DNA of 64,000 nucleotides. It comes from Pseudomonas abietaniphila (GTDB lineage Bacteria; Pseudomonadota; Gammaproteobacteria; Pseudomonadales; Pseudomonadaceae). Position numbers and translations under genes: made by a program. The notes beneath the pieces were generated by a model that was given only the letters and a program-made list of their open reading frames with translations, did no database searches and was not told the DNA's origin. The stretch spans positions 6,014,001 through 6,078,000 of the forward strand of contig NZ_CP155619.1 of the NCBI RefSeq assembly GCF_039697315.1, given 5' to 3'. Below, one piece after another: positions 9,634-19,714 of the stretch; the first letter of the stretch is position 1; every line of letters begins with the position of its first letter.

Positions 9634-10242
9634 ATGAATGATTTACTGACCCGCCGTCAGGTGGTCACGGGTCTGGGGCTGTTGGGCCTTGGGCTTCTCG
9701 CGGGTTGCGATGGATCGACCACTGCGCTCGATTTCAAATACGGCAAGGATCTGAGCAACAAGATCATGGGCCGTACCTTCAAACTCACCGACACCCACGG
9801 TGAGGTCAAGACGCTTTCCAGCTATCGCGGACTGATGCCGGTGGTGTTCTTCGGCTTCACCCAGTGCCCGTCGGTCTGCCCGACCGCCTTGGCGCGTGCG
9901 GTTCAGGCCAAGAAGTTGATGGGCGAAGACGGCAAGACCATGCAAGTGATCTTCATCACCGTCGACCCCGAACGTGATACGCCCGAGATACTCGACGCTT
10001 ACGTCAAACAGTTCGATCCGAGCTTTGTGGCCCTGCGCGGCACGCTGGAACAAACTCAGGCCGTGGCCAAGGAATTTGGCGTGTTCTACGAAAAGGTCCC
10101 GGTCGGCGACACTTACACGATGTCCCACACCGCCACCAGTTTCGTGTTCGATTCGCGCGGTAACCTGCGTCTCGGCCTGTCGCCTTCGCTCTCCGCCAAA
10201 CAATGCGCGGAAGATCTGCTCACTGTCATGGAGGTCTGCTGA
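9634..10242 (+). CDS. SCO1/SenC copper-chaperone lipoprotein
   Basis: A 202-aa thioredoxin-fold protein anchored in the membrane as a lipoprotein (hydrophobic start with a Tat-like TRRQVV and lipobox LLAGC, Cys25). The copper-binding set of SCO proteins is complete: C78 and C82 in FTQCPSVCPTAL, and H166 in YTMSHTATS. SCO proteins deliver copper to the CuA site of cytochrome c oxidase or act as periplasmic thiol reductants for it. It overlaps the PCuAC gene (TGATG), so both are made together; this SCO/PCuAC pairing is known for CuA assembly. Confidence 0.9.
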   Translation: MNDLLTRRQVVTGLGLLGLGLLAGCDGSTTALDFKYGKDLSNKIMGRTFKLTDTHGEVKTLSSYRGLMPVVFFGFTQCPSVCPTALARAVQAKKLMGEDGKTMQVIFITVDPERDTPEILDAYVKQFDPSFVALRGTLEQTQAVAKEFGVFYEKVPVGDTYTMSHTATSFVFDSRGNLRLGLSPSLSAKQCAEDLLTVMEVC

Positions 10243-10727
10243 TGACTGCTCTGTTTTCCAATGCTGTCCGGGCTGTGGTGGTGTCGCTGTTGGCGGGCGG
10301 CAGCCTGTCGGCCATCGCACAAACCAAAGTGGAAGACGCCTGGGTGCGCACCTCTGTGCCAGGTCAGCCGTCCTCGGGCGCGTTCATGCGCGTGACCGCC
10401 GACAGCGACAGCAAGCTGCTCAGTGTCAGCTCGCCGGCCGCCAAGGACGTGCAGATTCATGAGATGAGCATGACCAACGATGTGATGCGCATGGGTCCAG
10501 TGGATTCGGTGGCATTGCCTGCCGGCAAGACCGTCTCGCTTGACCCGGACGGGTACCACGTGATGCTCATGGGGCTGGTCAAGCAGATCAAGGAGGGCGA
10601 TCGGGTCCCGCTGACCCTCACGGTCGAGAACGACAAGGGCGTGCGTGAAACCATCGAGGTGCAAGCCCCCGCGCGCGCAATGATGGAAAAGATGGACATG
10701 GGCCACGATCACGACGCCATGAAGTGA
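10242..10727 (+). CDS. PCuAC-family periplasmic copper chaperone
   Basis: A 161-aa secreted protein with a signal peptide ending near SAIAQT and the PCuAC copper-binding pattern: H73 and M75 in QIHEMSM, M84 in VMRMG, then H106 and M108 in YHVMLM. The C-terminal MEKMDMGHDHD adds a second Met/His metal-binding tail. PCuAC proteins hand Cu(I) to CuA sites, often with SCO. GGAGG lies 8 nt before the ATG, and the ATG overlaps the SCO stop codon. Confidence 0.9.
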   Translation: MTALFSNAVRAVVVSLLAGGSLSAIAQTKVEDAWVRTSVPGQPSSGAFMRVTADSDSKLLSVSSPAAKDVQIHEMSMTNDVMRMGPVDSVALPAGKTVSLDPDGYHVMLMGLVKQIKEGDRVPLTLTVENDKGVRETIEVQAPARAMMEKMDMGHDHDAMK

Positions 10728-10796
10728 AGTCAACCTGGAGGTGCCGGTTGCAATGACCGGCACCAATTTTTGGCGCAAATACGTCCTGTCAGTGGA

Positions 10797-11730
10797 CGTT
10801 GAAGTGTCAGCTCCACCGCATTCGCGAGCAAGCTCCCTCCCACCGTATAAGCGTCTTCGTCAAATCGTCAGAACGACACGAACCCTGTAGGAGACGTCCG
10901 AGGTTACGAGGGCAGCGAATGTGGAGTGTCAGTCACCGTTGATGCTGCTGACCCACCGCATTCGCGAGCAAGCTCGCTCCCACCTTACTAGCGTCCTCCT
11001 CAGATCGTCAGAACGACACGGACCCTGTGGGAGACGTCCGAGGTTACGAGGGCAGCGAATGCGGAGTGTCAGTCACCGTTGATGCTGCTGACCCACCGCA
11101 TTCGCGAGCAACCTCGCTCCCACCTTACTAGCGTCCTCCTCAAATCGTCAGAACGACACGAACCCTGTAGGAGACGTCCGAGGTCACGAGGGCAGCGAAT
11201 GCAGAGTGTCAGTCACCGTTGATGCTGCTGACCCACCGCATTCGCGAGCAAGCTCGCTCCCACCGTATGAGCGTCCTCCTCAAGTCGTCAGCACGACGCG
11301 GACCCTGTAGGAGACGTCCGAGGTCACGAGGGCAGCGAATGCGGCGGGTCATCCAATGGTGATGTCGCTGACCCACCGCATTCGCGAGCAAGCTCGCTCC
11401 CACCTTACTAGCGTCCTCCTCAAATCGTCAGAACGACACAAACCCTGTAGGAGACGTCCGAGGTTACGAGGGCAGCGAATGCGGAGTGTCAGTCACCGTT
11501 GATGCTGCTGACCCACCGCATTCGCGAGCAAGCTCACTCCCACCATATGAGCGTCCTCCTCACGTCGTCAGCACGACGCGGACCCTGTGGGAGACGTCCG
11601 AGGTTACGAGGGCAGCGAATGCGGTGGGTCATCCACGGGTGATGTCACTGACCCACCGCATTCGCGAGCAAGCTCGCACCCACCGTATGGGCGTTCTCCT
11701 TACGTCGTCAGAACGACACTGATCCTGTAG
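10797..11730. repeat. Tandem array with exact 140-bp period, built of paired REP-like arms
   Basis: The block CGCATTCGCGAGCAAGCTCG recurs at 10817, 10957, 11097, 11237, 11377, 11517 and 11657, always 140 bp apart: six full units plus a partial one at the Nramp end. Each unit has arm A (the block above, ending in CTCCCAC), a linker with GTCAGAACGAC or GTCAGCACGAC, arm B (GGGAGACGTCCGAGG, then ACGAGGGCAGCGAATG) pointing the other way, and a spacer. There are two spacer types: one with TCACCGTTGATGCTGCTGAC and one with GGGTCATCCA..GGTGATGTC; the unit order is roughly A-A-A-B-A-B. It fills the gap between the convergent PCuAC and mntH genes and holds no gene I can support. Confidence 0.95.
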
Positions 11731-11732
11731 CC

Positions 11733-13061
11733 TCACGCCCGAAACATCCCCACCAGCAGCACCAGATTCAACCCGATGATCAACAGCGCAATGGCGCAGG
11801 ACAACGTCGTCAACACCGGGCCGGTCACGAAACTCCCCATCAGCTTACGGTCCGACACGAAGCGCACCAGCGGCACGATGGCGAACGGCAGTTGCATCGA
11901 CAGGATAACCTGGCTGAGCACCAGCAGTTTGGCAGTGCCTTCGGCGCCGTACAGGCTGGTGACCACCACCACGGGGATGATCGCCAGGCCTCGGGTCAGC
12001 AGGCGGCGCACCCAACCGGGGAGTTTGAGGCTAAGAAAGCCTTCCATGACGATCTGCCCGGCCAGCGTCGCGGTGACCGTGGAGTTAATGCCTGACGCCA
12101 GCAGCGCCACCGCAAACAGCGCTGAAGCGATCCCCACCCCCAGCATCGGCGACAGCAGGTGATAGGCCTCCTCGATTTCCACGACATCGGTCTTGCCGGC
12201 CTTGTGAAACACCGTCGCGGCAGTGATCAGGATCGCGGCATTGACGAATAACGCCAGCGTCAGGGCGATGGTGCTGTCGGTGACCGCCCAGCGCAGGCCG
12301 ATCCGGCGGCCTTCGTCGGTGCGTGGGTAAGCACGGGTCTGGACGATGGAGGAGTGCAGGTACAAGTTATGGGGCATGACCGTTGCGCCGATGATGCCGA
12401 TGGCCAGGTAAAGCGCAGCCGGGTTGGTCACCACCTCAGTCTTGGGGATGAACCCGGCAAACAGCTCGGCCATGTCTGGACGGGCAAGGACCATCTGGAT
12501 CGCGAAGCAGCCGAAGATGATCAACAGCAGCGCAATGACGAAGGCTTCCAGCGCCCTGAATCCTCTGCCCATCAGCAAAAATATGAGGAAGACGTCGATG
12601 GCGGAAATCACCGCGCCCCACACCAGTGGGATACCGAACAGCAGGTTCAGCGCGATCGCGGTACCGATGACTTCAGCCAGATCGCAGGCGATGATCGCGA
12701 TTTCGCAGGCGATCCACAATGCAATGCAGACGGGACGGCTGTAACGTTCCCGGCACGCGCGGGCCAGGTCCCAGCCGGTCACGATGCCGAGTCGGGCAGA
12801 CAGTGCCTGCAAGACGATCGCCATCAGATTGGAAAACAGAATGACCGAGAGCAGCAGGTAACCGAATTGCGAACCACCCGCAAGGTCCGTCGCCCAGTTG
12901 CCCGGGTCCATGTAGCCGACGGCAACCATGTACCCAGGACCGGTGAAGGCCAGCAGGCGCTTGAACCAGTTCCCGGTCTTGGGCACGGCAACACTGGCAC
13001 TGGGCATGCCGCCGCCCAACGTGTCGTCGCCGGGATTGGCCCGGTTCTTTATCGGTTGCAT
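11733..13061 (-). CDS. mntH: Nramp-family Mn2+/Fe2+ transporter MntH
   Basis: A 442-aa proton-coupled divalent metal importer of the inner membrane with about 11 hydrophobic segments. The metal-site motifs are intact: DPGN in TM1 (residues 52-55) and MPH in TM6 (229-231). The size is slightly longer than E. coli MntH (412 aa) because of a 30-residue polar N-terminus. ATG 13061 has only a weak GGGA site. A DtxR/MntR-like palindrome about 90 bp upstream suggests manganese control. Its 3' end touches the 140-bp repeat array. Confidence 0.92.
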
Positions 13062-15171: not shown

Positions 15172-15672
15172 CTATTTCGTCCTGAAATCAGAGAGTGAGA
15201 TGACTTTAGAAGGCCGCACGCGCTAGCGCCATATCAACTCAACATCATTGATGGTCCATGCCGCGGGCATTCGGAAGTGTTTGTTCTAGTTCGACTTGAT
15301 ACAAAAGGCGAAGTCGGTAAACGCTATCATTTGCGCTAGCACACTTCGAGCCTGTTACGAGTGGGCGCGTATGTTGACGAGCTAATGTCCAAATGAAAAG
15401 AGCGCCACCGAAAAAATCCTCGATGACCGTTCGTAGGAGCAAATGAATATTAGCCGCCGTTGGCGTGTTCACCCCAAGAACACCGTCCGGCACTGGATGA
15501 TCCAGCCGCCGGATCTCACGGTACCTGTGCGCACACGGTCTCTGGGGGCCACACGCTGTTGTCTGCGTTGTCGCGAGATGTGCTGAAGCGTTGATTGCCC
15601 TGCGGCAATGGCCTTCGTTTTGCACCGGCTCTGTTTGCGGTTTATGACCAGAACAAGAAGGTGGAGGTAGTT
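15172..15672. other. 500-bp intergenic region, no gene supported
   Basis: Between a minus-strand lipoprotein gene and a plus-strand secreted-protein gene. Reading frames here show no plausible start or protein character. It probably holds two divergent promoters. The plus-strand gene is preceded by GGAGG at 15663-15667. Confidence 0.5.
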
Positions 15673-16410
15673 ATGCGATTCAAACAAGCAATCCTGGCGC
15701 TTGCCATCGGTGGGGTGCTGTCGGCATCCACCGTCCTGATCCCCGATCCGATCTCCCATTCCAGCGCATACGCCAAAGATGGTGGTGGTGGTGGTGGTGG
15801 TGGTGGTGGTGGTGGTGGTGGCGGCGGCGGTAATGGCGGCGGAGGCGGTGGCAACGGAGGCGGCGGCGGAAATGGCGGTGGCGGAGGCGGTCACGGTGGT
15901 GGCGGCGGAAATGGCGGTGGCGGAGGCGGCCACGGAGGTGGCGGTAACGGTGGTTCCGGCGGCGGCAGTGGCGGTGGCGGCTCAGGTGGTTCCGGCGGCG
16001 GCAACAGTGGCGGCGGTGGCAACAGCGCTGGCAACGGTCACGGCGGCAACGACCACGGCAATGATCACGGTGCTCGCGGCGATGACCATGGCAACCACGA
16101 CGCGGGCCATCGCGGCGAACACGCACAAGCAGGCGATGATCATGGGGGTGTCCACCGGTCTGGAGAAATCGGCGACGACCATGGCGTCCACAGGGCGGGC
16201 GAGGTCGGCGATGACCACGGCGTGCACAGGGCCGGCGAAATCGGCGATGACCACGGCGTGCACAGGGCCGGCGAGATCGGCGATGACCGTGGCGTGCACA
16301 GGGCCGGCGAAATCGGTGATGACCGGGGCAACCATGCTCTGGGCGAAGTAGGAGACGATCGCGGCAATCATGCCAGAGGTGAGCCAGGCGACAACCGCGG
16401 CGGTGCCTGA
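15673..16410 (+). CDS. Secreted glycine-rich repeat protein with GDDHG repeats
   Basis: A 245-aa exported protein. It has a signal peptide (MRFKQAILALAIGGVLSAS...) with cleavage likely near AYAKD, then about 100 residues that are almost pure glycine with Asn, His and Ser, then an Asp/His/Gly-rich part, and finally a C-terminal run of roughly six 12-residue repeats of the type AGEIGDDHGVHR. GGAGG is 6 nt before the ATG at 15673. The His/Asp-rich repeats could bind metal; the Gly-rich part is likely disordered. It lies just before a multicopper oxidase that also ends in a Gly/Ser tail. Function unknown. Confidence 0.75.
   Translation: MRFKQAILALAIGGVLSASTVLIPDPISHSSAYAKDGGGGGGGGGGGGGGGGGNGGGGGGNGGGGGNGGGGGGHGGGGGNGGGGGGHGGGGNGGSGGGSGGGGSGGSGGGNSGGGGNSAGNGHGGNDHGNDHGARGDDHGNHDAGHRGEHAQAGDDHGGVHRSGEIGDDHGVHRAGEVGDDHGVHRAGEIGDDHGVHRAGEIGDDRGVHRAGEIGDDRGNHALGEVGDDRGNHARGEPGDNRGGA
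15781..15830 (+). repeat. GGT trinucleotide microsatellite inside the glycine-rich gene
   Basis: About 13 uninterrupted GGT triplets from 15781, running into GGC triplets, all in frame as Gly codons. Slippage would add or remove glycines without a frameshift. Confidence 0.95.
16141..16390 (+). repeat. In-frame 36-bp repeats encoding AGEIGDDHGVHR
   Basis: About six head-to-tail copies of a 36-bp unit encode GDDHGVHRAGEI and its variants (H to R and V to N changes accumulate toward the 3' end: GDDRGVH, GDDRGNH). Copies near the middle are almost identical at DNA level, so the repeat number is probably variable between strains. Confidence 0.85.
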
Positions 16411-16789
16411 GGTGTAAGGATCGGACCGGGCGAAGCCGCGAGTGTCGGCTTCCCGGGCCGGTCATGACCCAGTCGAGTCCCCAACATCTTGTGAATTTCC
16501 CCATGTCTGCGGGGCCTTGTCCCCGCAGCGAACAACGACCATGCCAACTCCCATTCTTAAATCGTTACGACTTTTTTCGGTGAAAACCGCGCCGTAGCTG
16601 CGTCGGCTTGCCATCGTTTTGCCTTTATCACGTCGTGCTTCAACTCTGGCAAGGGATTTGCCCCTTCACCCACTACCTGCAGGCGCTTCTCCGTGCGACG
16701 GGCCGCAACAAGCCGTCGATGCGCAGCGCTTAACCAGGGCAGTCGGATGAAACACAAATGCCCCTGTGCATGAGTTGAAGGTGAATCAC
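16411..16789. other. Intergenic region before the multicopper oxidase, no gene supported
   Basis: Contains a weak hairpin (GAAGCCG...CGGCTTC near 16434-16457) after the glycine-rich gene without a T-run, then about 300 bp with no convincing frame. It probably carries the oxidase promoter; I see no clear regulator site. Confidence 0.45.
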
Positions 16790-19714
16790 ATGAAACAACC
16801 TGCGCGTTTAAAGTTTCCCCCCATCCACGGGTTTCAGCTTTTGCGCGGATCGTCCGCGGTATTGATGGCCCTGACCATGGGTCTGACCGGTGTCCAGGCC
16901 GGGCCGATCGACAACGAAGATCAGCCGCCTCCCACCGACCCCTCGGCCTACTACGACCCTCCCGCCGATCCGGCCGCTGCACTGAATAATCTGCTGACAC
17001 TGCCGGAAGCCAATGAAGGCGCTATCGATCTGCCGAACGATGTAAAAGGCACGCGTGCCACCACGAGGATCGAAAACGTCTTGCCGCCATCGGCGCAAAC
17101 CAGCTTCAACTTTCCCACCAATGGCAAGCCGAGCCCGTTGTTCGGCGCACAGCCCTTCACCCAGCCGGTGTTGCTGTTCGAAGAGTTTGGCCCGACCAAA
17201 CTCGACCCGACCGCCTCGCCGTCGCTGATCCCGTTCCCGGTGCCGACCCTCGGCCCAGGCCCCGCGCAGGATCCTACCAACGTCGCTCGCAGCGGTCCTT
17301 CGCCTGACGCACTGGCAGCGTTTCTCGCGCAACCGGGTCTGACGCCGTTCCCGACGCAGTTTGCCAACTCGCTGGACCGCAACCCGTGGCAGGCACAGAT
17401 TCAGGATTTCCTGAACCGTCGCGTGGACGCGCCCGCCGAAGGGCGTCCGCCAGGAAAAGGCTGGTCACATCAGCGCTGGAATGAGTTCTACCCGCAGATC
17501 GCCTACAAGACCGTGCAAACCGGCGCTCATTCCAACAGTGGGTTTCGGGATCACCTGCAGTTGCACGATTACAAGGGCGGGGAGTGGGGACCTGGCGGGT
17601 TGAATTACTACCCGGATGGCAGCACCAACCACGGCGGTACCGCCAGTGGCATCGGCGTGCGTATTCACCCGTTGATGCCGATTCAGGAGCACAACTCGGT
17701 GTGGACGTTCGACGGCACGCTGCCGCCCAAACTGCTGATGGTGCGTTACGGCCAGCCTGTGTTGATGCGTCACTACAACGGCTTGCCGATCGATCCGTCG
17801 GCCAATAAAGGATTCGGTCTGCACACCATTTCCACCCACGAACACAATGGCCACAACCCGGCTGAAAGTGACGGGTACGCCAACGCGTTCTTCTTTCCGG
17901 GGCAGTACTACGACTATCGCTGGCCGATGCAATTGGCGGGTTACGACACCATTAACACCAACGCCAAGGACCCTCGCGCAGCGTTTCCTTGCGCGCCAGG
18001 TGAAACCCTGTGGGTCAACGACGATTCACCGGGCCTGAAGACCTGTGATCACGGCACGATCAAAATCCGGGGTGACTGGCGCGAAACCATGAGCACCCAC
18101 TGGTTCCACGACCACATGATGGATTTCACCGCCCAGAACGTCTACAAGGGCAACGCGGCGATGATGAACTACTACAGCGCCCTGGACCGCGGTAACGAAG
18201 CCATCGACGACGGCGTCAACCTGCGTTTCCCCAGTGGCTCGACCCTGGCGTGGGGTAACCGCGATTACGACGTCAACCTGACGGTCGCCGACAAAGCGTG
18301 GGATCAGGCCGGGCAACTGTGGTTCAACCCGTTCAACACCGATGGCTTCCTCGGCGATGAAATGGTCGTGAACTGGGGCTACAAGCCTTACCTGGACGTG
18401 CGCGCCCGCAGCTACCGTTTTCGCATCCTCAACGGCTCGGTTTCGCGTTACGTGAAGATCGCCGTGGTGCGGGAAATCAAAGGCAACGGCGGTGAGTTTC
18501 CTGGTCCGAAAGACTCTGGCGTGTCCTACGCCCGTGTGCCTTTCCACATGATCGCCAACGACGGCAACATCATGGAACACACCGTGCCCTTTGACGGCAC
18601 CATGGACCTGGACGGTGACGGCGACCTGAAAAACAACTTCGGCATTCTGCCGACCCAAGGCATCGCCGAACGCTACGACATCATCATCAACTTCTCGAAA
18701 AACGGCATCAAGGCGGGTGACAAGCTGTACTTCGTCAACGTCATGGAACACGAAACCGGCAAAGGACCGAAAGGCGAAGTGCCGCTGGCAGACGTGTTGT
18801 CCGAGAAATACCTGGCCGTCATCAAGCAAGGCAGCAAGGGGCCGCAGTGGGACAAGGGTGATCCGGTGGTGGGCAAGTTCATGCAGATCAACGTCAAGCC
18901 TTATACCGGGCAGGACCTGAGTATGGATCCGGTGGCGTACGAGCCGGCCAAACCGGGCAAGCCTGAAGGCAAGACGATGATTCCGCTGACCCTGCACCGC
19001 GACAACGCCGCTGACATCGCGCTGTTGGGCCAGGCACGCCATCGCACCTTTATCTTCGGTCGTTCCGACGGCACGGATTCGGTGCCATGGACCATCAAGA
19101 CCGATGGCGGTCTGGGATTCAACATGGACCCACGCAGACTGTCTGCCGGTATGCACCTGGCCAACGGCCCAGAACCGGCGGGTTATCAAGGCACCGGTAC
19201 GCTGGAAGTCTGGAAAATCCAGAACGGCGGCAACGGTTGGACTCACCCGGTGCATGTGCACTTCGAAGAGGGGATCGTCCTGAGTCGCGGCGGCAAGGCG
19301 CCACCTGAGTGGGAAAAATGGGCGCGCAAAGACGTCTACCGCATCGGTACCGACAGTGGCGACAACGTCGAGATGGCAATCCATTTCCGCGAATTCGCCG
19401 GGACCTACATGGAGCATTGCCACAACACCCAGCATGAAGACAACTCGATGCTGCTGCGTTGGGACATCGAACACCCCGGTCAATTCCAGCTGATGCCAAC
19501 GCCGCTGCCCACTTGGGATGGCGTGGGGTATGTCGCTTCCGCGGCGTTGCCTACCTACCACGACGGTGATGGCAGCGGTCCTACGGTCAAGCTGGCGGCA
19601 GCGGTGACCACGCCCAGCAACTCGGGTGGTTCAACGTCGGGAGGTGGCGGCTCGGGTGGGTCGGGCTCTGGCGGATCGGGCTCCGGCGGATCGGGTTCCG
19701 GTAAAGGCAAATAG
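16790..19714 (+). CDS. Large exported multicopper oxidase with Gly/Ser-rich tail
   Basis: A 974-aa multicopper oxidase. All four copper-ligand motifs are present and in order: HEH (350-352), HWFHDH (437-442), HPVHVHF (819-825) and HCH-x3-H-x4-M (876-887, with axial Met). Type 1 and trinuclear sites should therefore be complete. An N-terminal signal peptide (about residues 1-40, ending near VQAG) sends it to the periplasm or beyond. It is much longer than CueO/CopA (about 500-600 aa), owing to a roughly 200-residue proline-rich N-terminal region and inserts; the end is a GGSGSGGSG tail. Manganese or organic substrates are possible, as for some large Pseudomonas oxidases, but not provable. ATG 16790 has AAGGTG about 7 nt upstream; GTG 16766 is less likely. 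It is followed by an SCO-cytochrome c gene. Confidence 0.88.
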   Translation: MKQPARLKFPPIHGFQLLRGSSAVLMALTMGLTGVQAGPIDNEDQPPPTDPSAYYDPPADPAAALNNLLTLPEANEGAIDLPNDVKGTRATTRIENVLPPSAQTSFNFPTNGKPSPLFGAQPFTQPVLLFEEFGPTKLDPTASPSLIPFPVPTLGPGPAQDPTNVARSGPSPDALAAFLAQPGLTPFPTQFANSLDRNPWQAQIQDFLNRRVDAPAEGRPPGKGWSHQRWNEFYPQIAYKTVQTGAHSNSGFRDHLQLHDYKGGEWGPGGLNYYPDGSTNHGGTASGIGVRIHPLMPIQEHNSVWTFDGTLPPKLLMVRYGQPVLMRHYNGLPIDPSANKGFGLHTISTHEHNGHNPAESDGYANAFFFPGQYYDYRWPMQLAGYDTINTNAKDPRAAFPCAPGETLWVNDDSPGLKTCDHGTIKIRGDWRETMSTHWFHDHMMDFTAQNVYKGNAAMMNYYSALDRGNEAIDDGVNLRFPSGSTLAWGNRDYDVNLTVADKAWDQAGQLWFNPFNTDGFLGDEMVVNWGYKPYLDVRARSYRFRILNGSVSRYVKIAVVREIKGNGGEFPGPKDSGVSYARVPFHMIANDGNIMEHTVPFDGTMDLDGDGDLKNNFGILPTQGIAERYDIIINFSKNGIKAGDKLYFVNVMEHETGKGPKGEVPLADVLSEKYLAVIKQGSKGPQWDKGDPVVGKFMQINVKPYTGQDLSMDPVAYEPAKPGKPEGKTMIPLTLHRDNAADIALLGQARHRTFIFGRSDGTDSVPWTIKTDGGLGFNMDPRRLSAGMHLANGPEPAGYQGTGTLEVWKIQNGGNGWTHPVHVHFEEGIVLSRGGKAPPEWEKWARKDVYRIGTDSGDNVEMAIHFREFAGTYMEHCHNTQHEDNSMLLRWDIEHPGQFQLMPTPLPTWDGVGYVASAALPTYHDGDGSGPTVKLAAAVTTPSNSGGSTSGGGGSGGSGSGGSGSGGSGSGKGK

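Follow-up and report, generated by a model that had tools for sequence, protein, structure and literature searches.

The tandem array that separates a copper chaperone gene from mntH in the window (the 64,000-nucleotide stretch of Pseudomonas abietaniphila DNA analysed here) consists of six 97-bp chimeric REPINs in tandem, each joining a canonical REP arm to a longer arm that is likely a bulged hairpin, with 43-nt spacers between them. The spread of the bulged arms is likely due to a cognate RAYT transposase, the gene of which is found elsewhere in the genome, and the copy number of the array likely changed by unequal recombination or slippage; taken as a whole, we consider this account probable. 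What is new is the bulged arm class together with its RAYT group, whereas the array itself is of a known kind.

Each unit of the array is composed of a 97-bp REPIN and a 43-nt spacer, which make up the 140 nt of the period, and the six REPINs point their GTRGGAG heads outward (Table 1). In each REPIN, a long (bulged) arm comes first, then a core of 47 nt whose two halves are GGTGGGTCAG-like and inverted, and finally a canonical arm in the opposite orientation; the loop of the long arm is GAGGTTACGA in four of the six cases and GAGGTCACGA in two. An earlier note on this DNA had described seven 20-bp blocks from 10817 to 11657, and we confirmed their positions, with successive copies exactly 140 nt apart. 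Moreover, the tandem-repeat search (TRF) that it had proposed recovered the array (10813-11730, period 140, 6.6 copies, 89% matches, 0% indels). The note had called the array perfect, which holds for the spacing but not for the sequence, the full 140-nt units differing pairwise at 4 to 22 of 140 sites. It had correctly recognized paired, oppositely oriented REP arms in each unit, though it did not notice how one of them departs from ordinary REPs. Comparison of the units also reproduced the A-A-A-B-A-B order of the linkers and the extra changes common to the units at 11237 and 11517. Furthermore, the suggested growth via a two-unit block is supported, since the two copies of this block differ at 13 of 280 sites, compared to 17 to 22 of 140 sites between A and B units.

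Table 1. Features of the array and its surroundings (positions in the window; "bulged" refers to the predicted hairpin)
Feature	Position	Strand	Details
Copper chaperone PCu(A)C gene, left neighbour	10203..10727	+	PF04314; stop at 10727
Terminator-like stem-loop with T run, 3' of the chaperone gene	10740..10772	+	The sole one detected in 10600-11900; shuffles mean 0.8
Whole tandem array	10813..11730	.	Period 140, TRF
Unpaired left end	10817..10886	.	First 43-nt spacer, preceded by a canonical arm on the - strand with its head at 10843
Mixed REPIN 1	10887..10983	.	97 bp; bulged arm (+) starts at 10887, with loop at 10900-10909; core of 47 nt; canonical arm (-) ends at 10983
Mixed REPIN 2	11027..11123	.	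Loop 11040-11049
Mixed REPIN 3	11167..11263	.	Loop 11180-11189 = GAGGTCACGA
Mixed REPIN 4	11307..11403	.	Loop 11320-11329 = GAGGTCACGA; core B-type
Mixed REPIN 5	11447..11543	.	Loop 11460-11469
Mixed REPIN 6	11587..11683	.	Loop 11600-11609; core B-type
Two-unit block, two copies	11097..11656	.	11097-11376 and 11377-11656; 13/280 sites differ
Right end	11684..11730	+	Last spacer, followed by a seventh bulged arm reduced to a GTAG stub; ends 2 nt away from the stop codon of mntH
mntH, right neighbour, convergent	11733..13061	-	NF001923; stop at 11733-11735

As the earlier note had stated, the array fills a convergent gap between two metal genes, whose products we assigned to PCuAC (PF04314, + strand) and MntH (NF001923, - strand). 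The array was rejected as the terminator of the chaperone gene, since a terminator-like site belonging to that gene already lies ahead of the array. A structured RNA family was likewise rejected, as a search of 10700-11800 against Rfam gave no match at E values up to 1, and no promoter-like site was detected in 10600-11900. Elsewhere in the window, we could observe a Cobalamin riboswitch (RF00174, 99 bits, 1310-1507, - strand) and a frame at 15595-16410 (+), Gly rich and then made of DDHG repeats, which lies upstream of a 982-amino-acid frame at 16766-19714 (+) that, from its His motifs, we take to resemble a multicopper oxidase; TRF gave periods of 15, 36 and 39 in the former frame.

The mntH array is ordinary in its own genome, where it is one of many. 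The genome search for the unit, also proposed earlier, returned 137 BLAST matches to the 140-nt unit in the one-contig genome, and the arm pattern GGTTACGAN{3,9}GCGAA matched 382 times, compared to 0 times for the pattern reversed; thus, the arms of the array are not due to chance. Among the matches listed, we examined 59 loci chosen by a match to the 140-nt unit or to an arm pattern containing GGTTACGA, leaving out the places at 2652071, 2885297 and 2994754. These loci hold 236 long and 82 canonical arms, with 67 clusters of long arms, 30 of which have at least three arms. The view that such an array is unusual is contradicted by these clusters, as well as by the tandem REPIN clusters described in the relevant passages of PMC3116915. 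The note had added that identical arrays scattered over the genome would speak against its proposal: many similar arrays are indeed present, but they are not identical.

As in REPs, the bulged arms carry a GTRG head at the foot of the palindrome (GTGGGAG in 123 and GTAGGAG in 105 of 236), and they are extragenic and multicopy, with 382 arms and no cluster inside the genes called by a crude codon-based caller. The 246 pairs of neighbouring arms comprise 96 head-out, 109 head-in and 41 pairs facing the same way, with head-out and head-in pairs alternating in the arrays. Moreover, as in REPINs, the arms are inverted at a fixed spacing, with 33 of 48 mixed pairs at a head-out distance of 96 and 26 of 44 bulged pairs at one of 106. 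The period differs between arrays, from about 98 to 335. Spacer identity has a median of 0.91 within arrays (135 pairs) and of 0.48 between arrays (4716 pairs), so amplification of the REPIN seems to have included the DNA that flanks it. The similarity of the spacers within an array also led us to reject a CRISPR, in which spacers are unlike one another. By single linkage at 70%, which may chain, 17 of 19 spacer families are confined to one locus, and one family, including the mntH array, extends over 18 loci. We also noticed that the arm variant GGTTACGAGGGTCGCGAA forms a long array at locus L101 (G000 2072763-2077636), with nine copies among the matches listed, eight of them 191 to 215 apart.

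In Pseudomonas fluorescens SBW25, the sections of Bertels and Rainey (2011, PMC3116915) devoted to clusters describe the amplification of flanking DNA with the REPIN and report 16 ordered tandem REPIN clusters that include it, the largest comprising four REPINs and one REP over more than 700 bp. The arrays considered here are similar in having near-identical REPINs and flanks in tandem and RAYT genes beside clusters, and the mntH array, with six REPINs, is larger than the largest reported in those sections. The mixing of classes within an array has a precedent too, since the same sections present highly ordered GI-GIII arrays of SBW25 in which two REP classes are mixed with a 184-bp period. 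However, GI, GII and GIII appear there as short-loop palindromes of near-equal size, whereas here one arm is 10 nt longer and has a conserved loop and, different from SBW25, the mixed pair keeps the canonical REPIN core. GTAG repeats (Di Nocera 2013, PMC3733652) are also described as dimers reiterated in tandem with flanking DNA; their loops span 2 to 20 bp across families, and those of the Pseudomonas families, compared by their description in the text only, are short.

The arrays show a preference for gaps between convergent genes. With a crude gene caller, and leaving out six clusters at locus ends, the 55 array gaps were found to be 32 convergent, 21 codirectional and 2 divergent, compared to 6, 34 and 16, respectively, of 56 other gaps in the same loci. 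It could be argued from this preference, from the beginning of the mntH array 2 nt after the mntH stop codon and from the failure to find a terminator-like site on the mntH strand in 10600-11900 that the array is kept for a function, with its hairpins ending or stabilising the mntH transcript or insulating the convergent genes and the spread of the arms being secondary. A possible effect at the mntH 3' end is the main rival to a small role in the host, and we regard such a function as improbable. In fact, a shortage of divergent gaps would also be expected from the purifying loss of insertions into promoters, and at the mntH site the copy number ranges from 0 to 6 among relatives, with a different spacer in Pseudomonas sp. 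NFACC02. Six bulged arms occur here, one in P. abietaniphila ATCC 700689, two in NFACC02 and none in G085; thus, the copy number has changed between close relatives. At the site of ATCC 700689, a canonical arm and a single long arm are separated by the same 43-nt spacer, without forming a whole REPIN; that of NFACC02 has two long arms 154 apart; G085 presents a short gap without arms, and G020 and P. graminis show canonical or other repeats. The change in copy number was probably due to unequal recombination or slippage, and the array may have gained units here instead of losing them in ATCC 700689; it would have no strong effect on the host beyond its position directly downstream of the mntH stop codon.

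With regard to the long arm, selection by head and tail alone yielded 191 arms in the 59 chosen loci, of which 176 have exactly GAGGTTACGA as their loop; since these loci were chosen by the unit or by a pattern containing GGTTACGA, this conservation is unselected as far as the arm is concerned but selected for the locus. The stems vary (GACGTCC/GGGCAGC, GCTGCTG/CAGTGGC, GACGTCG/CGGCAGC, GCAATCG/CGGTCGC and others). For 30 distinct stem-loops of related sequence, retained after dropping six sequences without such a loop, the covariation score was 0.379, compared to 0.224 (sd 0.023) in shuffles, 82.4% rather than 72.9% of the stem cells were paired and 19 rather than 9.3 cells had two-sided changes, with 0 of 500 shuffles as high in each case; in the same set, four pairs had changes on both sides and 10 pair types occurred, values not above those of shuffles (3.7 and 9.5). 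Stem pair 2 is unpaired in 10 and stem pair 3 in 22 of the 30 distinct arms, and a stem slid by -3 still pairs 74.8% of the cells. DNA folding provided weak thermodynamic proof of a hairpin, as the stem-loop type of the mntH array did no better than shuffles (z of 0.79, and of 0.54 for the whole arm). Wobble T-G pairs favour one strand, with a mean of 5.75 pairs of 7, and the opposite strand, with fewer pairs (5.14), was rejected as the structured one.

We suggest that the long arm is likely to form a bulged hairpin, in which GAG....CGA may represent a small loop together with a G-C pair and two G.A mismatches. The latter reading is helped by the loops of relatives (GAGGTCACGA, GAGGTACGA, GAGGCACGA, GAGCTGTGCGA and GAGCCGTGCGA), in which the middle varies but the ends do not. 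The canonical arm is a short, generally perfect palindrome like Group 3 REPs, to which, in the relevant sections of PMC8266576, Pseudomonas REPs mainly belong; the bulged arm, with its 10-nt loop and frequent mismatches at stem pairs 2 and 3, is not. The interrupted stem predicted here is similar to that of the E. coli group 2 REPs which the same sections discuss with TnpA_REP, where the mismatches are conserved and needed by the enzyme. However, different from E. coli group 2, the RAYT considered here groups with the Pseudomonas RAYTs of short REPs, and the bulge is read from sequence only. In the literature searched, in which the REP papers were represented by passages or selected sections, we found no description of the long-arm loop, and the papers listed for the loop decamer were, by their titles, not on REPs.

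The genome contains three genes for Y1 transposases. One of them, at G000 5412573-5413028 (NF047646, 155.1 bits; nearest solved structure PDB 4er8, E value of 1.2e-7), has long-arm arrays on both sides, as is typical of a RAYT flanked by its own REP, while the other two are flanked by other REPs; in the flanks read, the canonical arm class was found beside none of the three. A second RAYT of the genome (locus L050, 16-1345) follows an array of REP pairs of its own, GTAGGAGCGTGGCTTGTCCCGCGA, with a spacing of about 239. Among 80 relatives of the RAYT in named genomes, the exact loop occurs near the gene only in P. abietaniphila ATCC 700689 (RAYT 96% identical) and Pseudomonas sp. NFACC02 (85%). 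With a broader definition, GAG-N3-5-CGA arms with a paired stem occur at 7 of 112 RAYT loci, compared to 0 of 112 in the reversed control. In a tree of 48 rows chosen from the 112, without group 2 (E. coli-type) proteins, these seven RAYTs, including the one that lies between two long-arm arrays in this genome, cluster together (93/81, not starred; recovered in 94% of 200 bootstrap trees) and are surrounded by RAYTs whose REPs are canonical. When the exact loop (4 rows) is marked on the tree of all 112 rows, two changes are needed and the two sub-groups lie in an open fork. Only two alignment positions (V83 and V86 of the query) set the seven RAYTs apart. The data do not show a switch at a single syntenic RAYT site, as a trmK-like neighbour is common only to P. 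abietaniphila and NFACC02, both with bulged arms. Arm counts with a stricter pattern broadly follow the RAYT type: 267 in ATCC 700689, 149 in NFACC02, 64 in G085, 9 in P. graminis and 0 in P. batumici. Among 199 Pseudomonas genomes sampled, five others have 10 to 17 arms (G155, 17; G115, 16; G182, 13; G184, 12; G020, 10), and no RAYT of the bulged type was seen at the one RAYT locus considered in each of G115, G182 and G020.

The RAYT at 5412573-5413028 may be the enzyme that cuts and moves the bulged arms. The invariant loop, the co-varying stem and the strand preference of the wobble pairs (5.75 vs 5.14 of 7) would also suit a binding site of another protein, or an RNA element, carried along by ordinary REPs rather than being a RAYT substrate. 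However, the arms flank RAYT genes of one group, at 7 of 112 loci, and 44 pairs consist of two bulged arms without any canonical arm, so that we judge this alternative quite unlikely. Finally, although short reads can miscount 140-bp repeats, a false array or a wrong copy number due to assembly is very improbable, given the one-contig genome, the graded differences between units with their two-unit pattern and the similar arrays in contigs of ATCC 700689 and NFACC02. Our best reading is a RAYT/REP pair specific to this lineage, whose mixed REPINs have been amplified in tandem.

The exact canonical arm occurs 136 times in the genome. Among the matches listed, 14 canonical head-out pairs have cores of 46 to 50 nt, and 47 nt is the commonest length in canonical (6 of 14), mixed (33 of 48) and bulged (26 of 44) head-out pairs alike, with counts that are not independent, since the arrays repeat the same REPIN. 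The consensus cores are also alike in the three kinds. It follows from the shared 47-nt core that canonical, mixed and bulged REPINs typically measure 87, 97 and 107 bp, respectively. The simplest reading of the common core length is that the arms were exchanged within a fixed REPIN frame, and mixed REPINs would have arisen by replacement of one arm of a canonical REPIN. We could also notice, in some arms of both types (L012, L013, L017, L029, L045 and others), that a common stretch, GGTCTGGGC..CGGACGAATGCGG, takes the place of the 3' half of the stem, as if arm halves had been exchanged.

In the sections of Nunvar (2013, PMC3686654) on RAYT-linked REPs, sorted into classes PF1 to PF22, it is proposed that the REPs of orthologous RAYTs can change, an orthoswitch whose mechanism, according to the same source, can only be guessed. 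The canonical arm fits PF10 and is, like the bulged arm, a REP of the RAYT-linked kind treated there, whereas the GAG-N3-5-CGA loop is in none of the 22 PF sequences. We may tentatively hypothesize, while leaning against rather than toward it, that the mixed REPINs are preserved intermediates of a REP switch. In this view, a RAYT lineage would have exchanged its short, perfectly palindromic substrate for a bulged hairpin with tandem G.A mismatches, a G-C pair and a GNNA/GNA loop, and would thereby have reached independently the kind of REP known from E. coli. The change would have proceeded arm by arm within the 47-nt frame (87, 97 and 107 bp), with a transposase tolerating unlike ends.

How RAYTs and REPs change together is an open question, on which a group of RAYTs with bulged REPs among relatives with canonical REPs bears directly. 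Mixed REPINs, with an old and a new arm in the same frame, bear on whether a REPIN with unlike ends can move; they offer natural substrates for the hairpin features read by the RAYT and may show how repeats change their partner enzyme.
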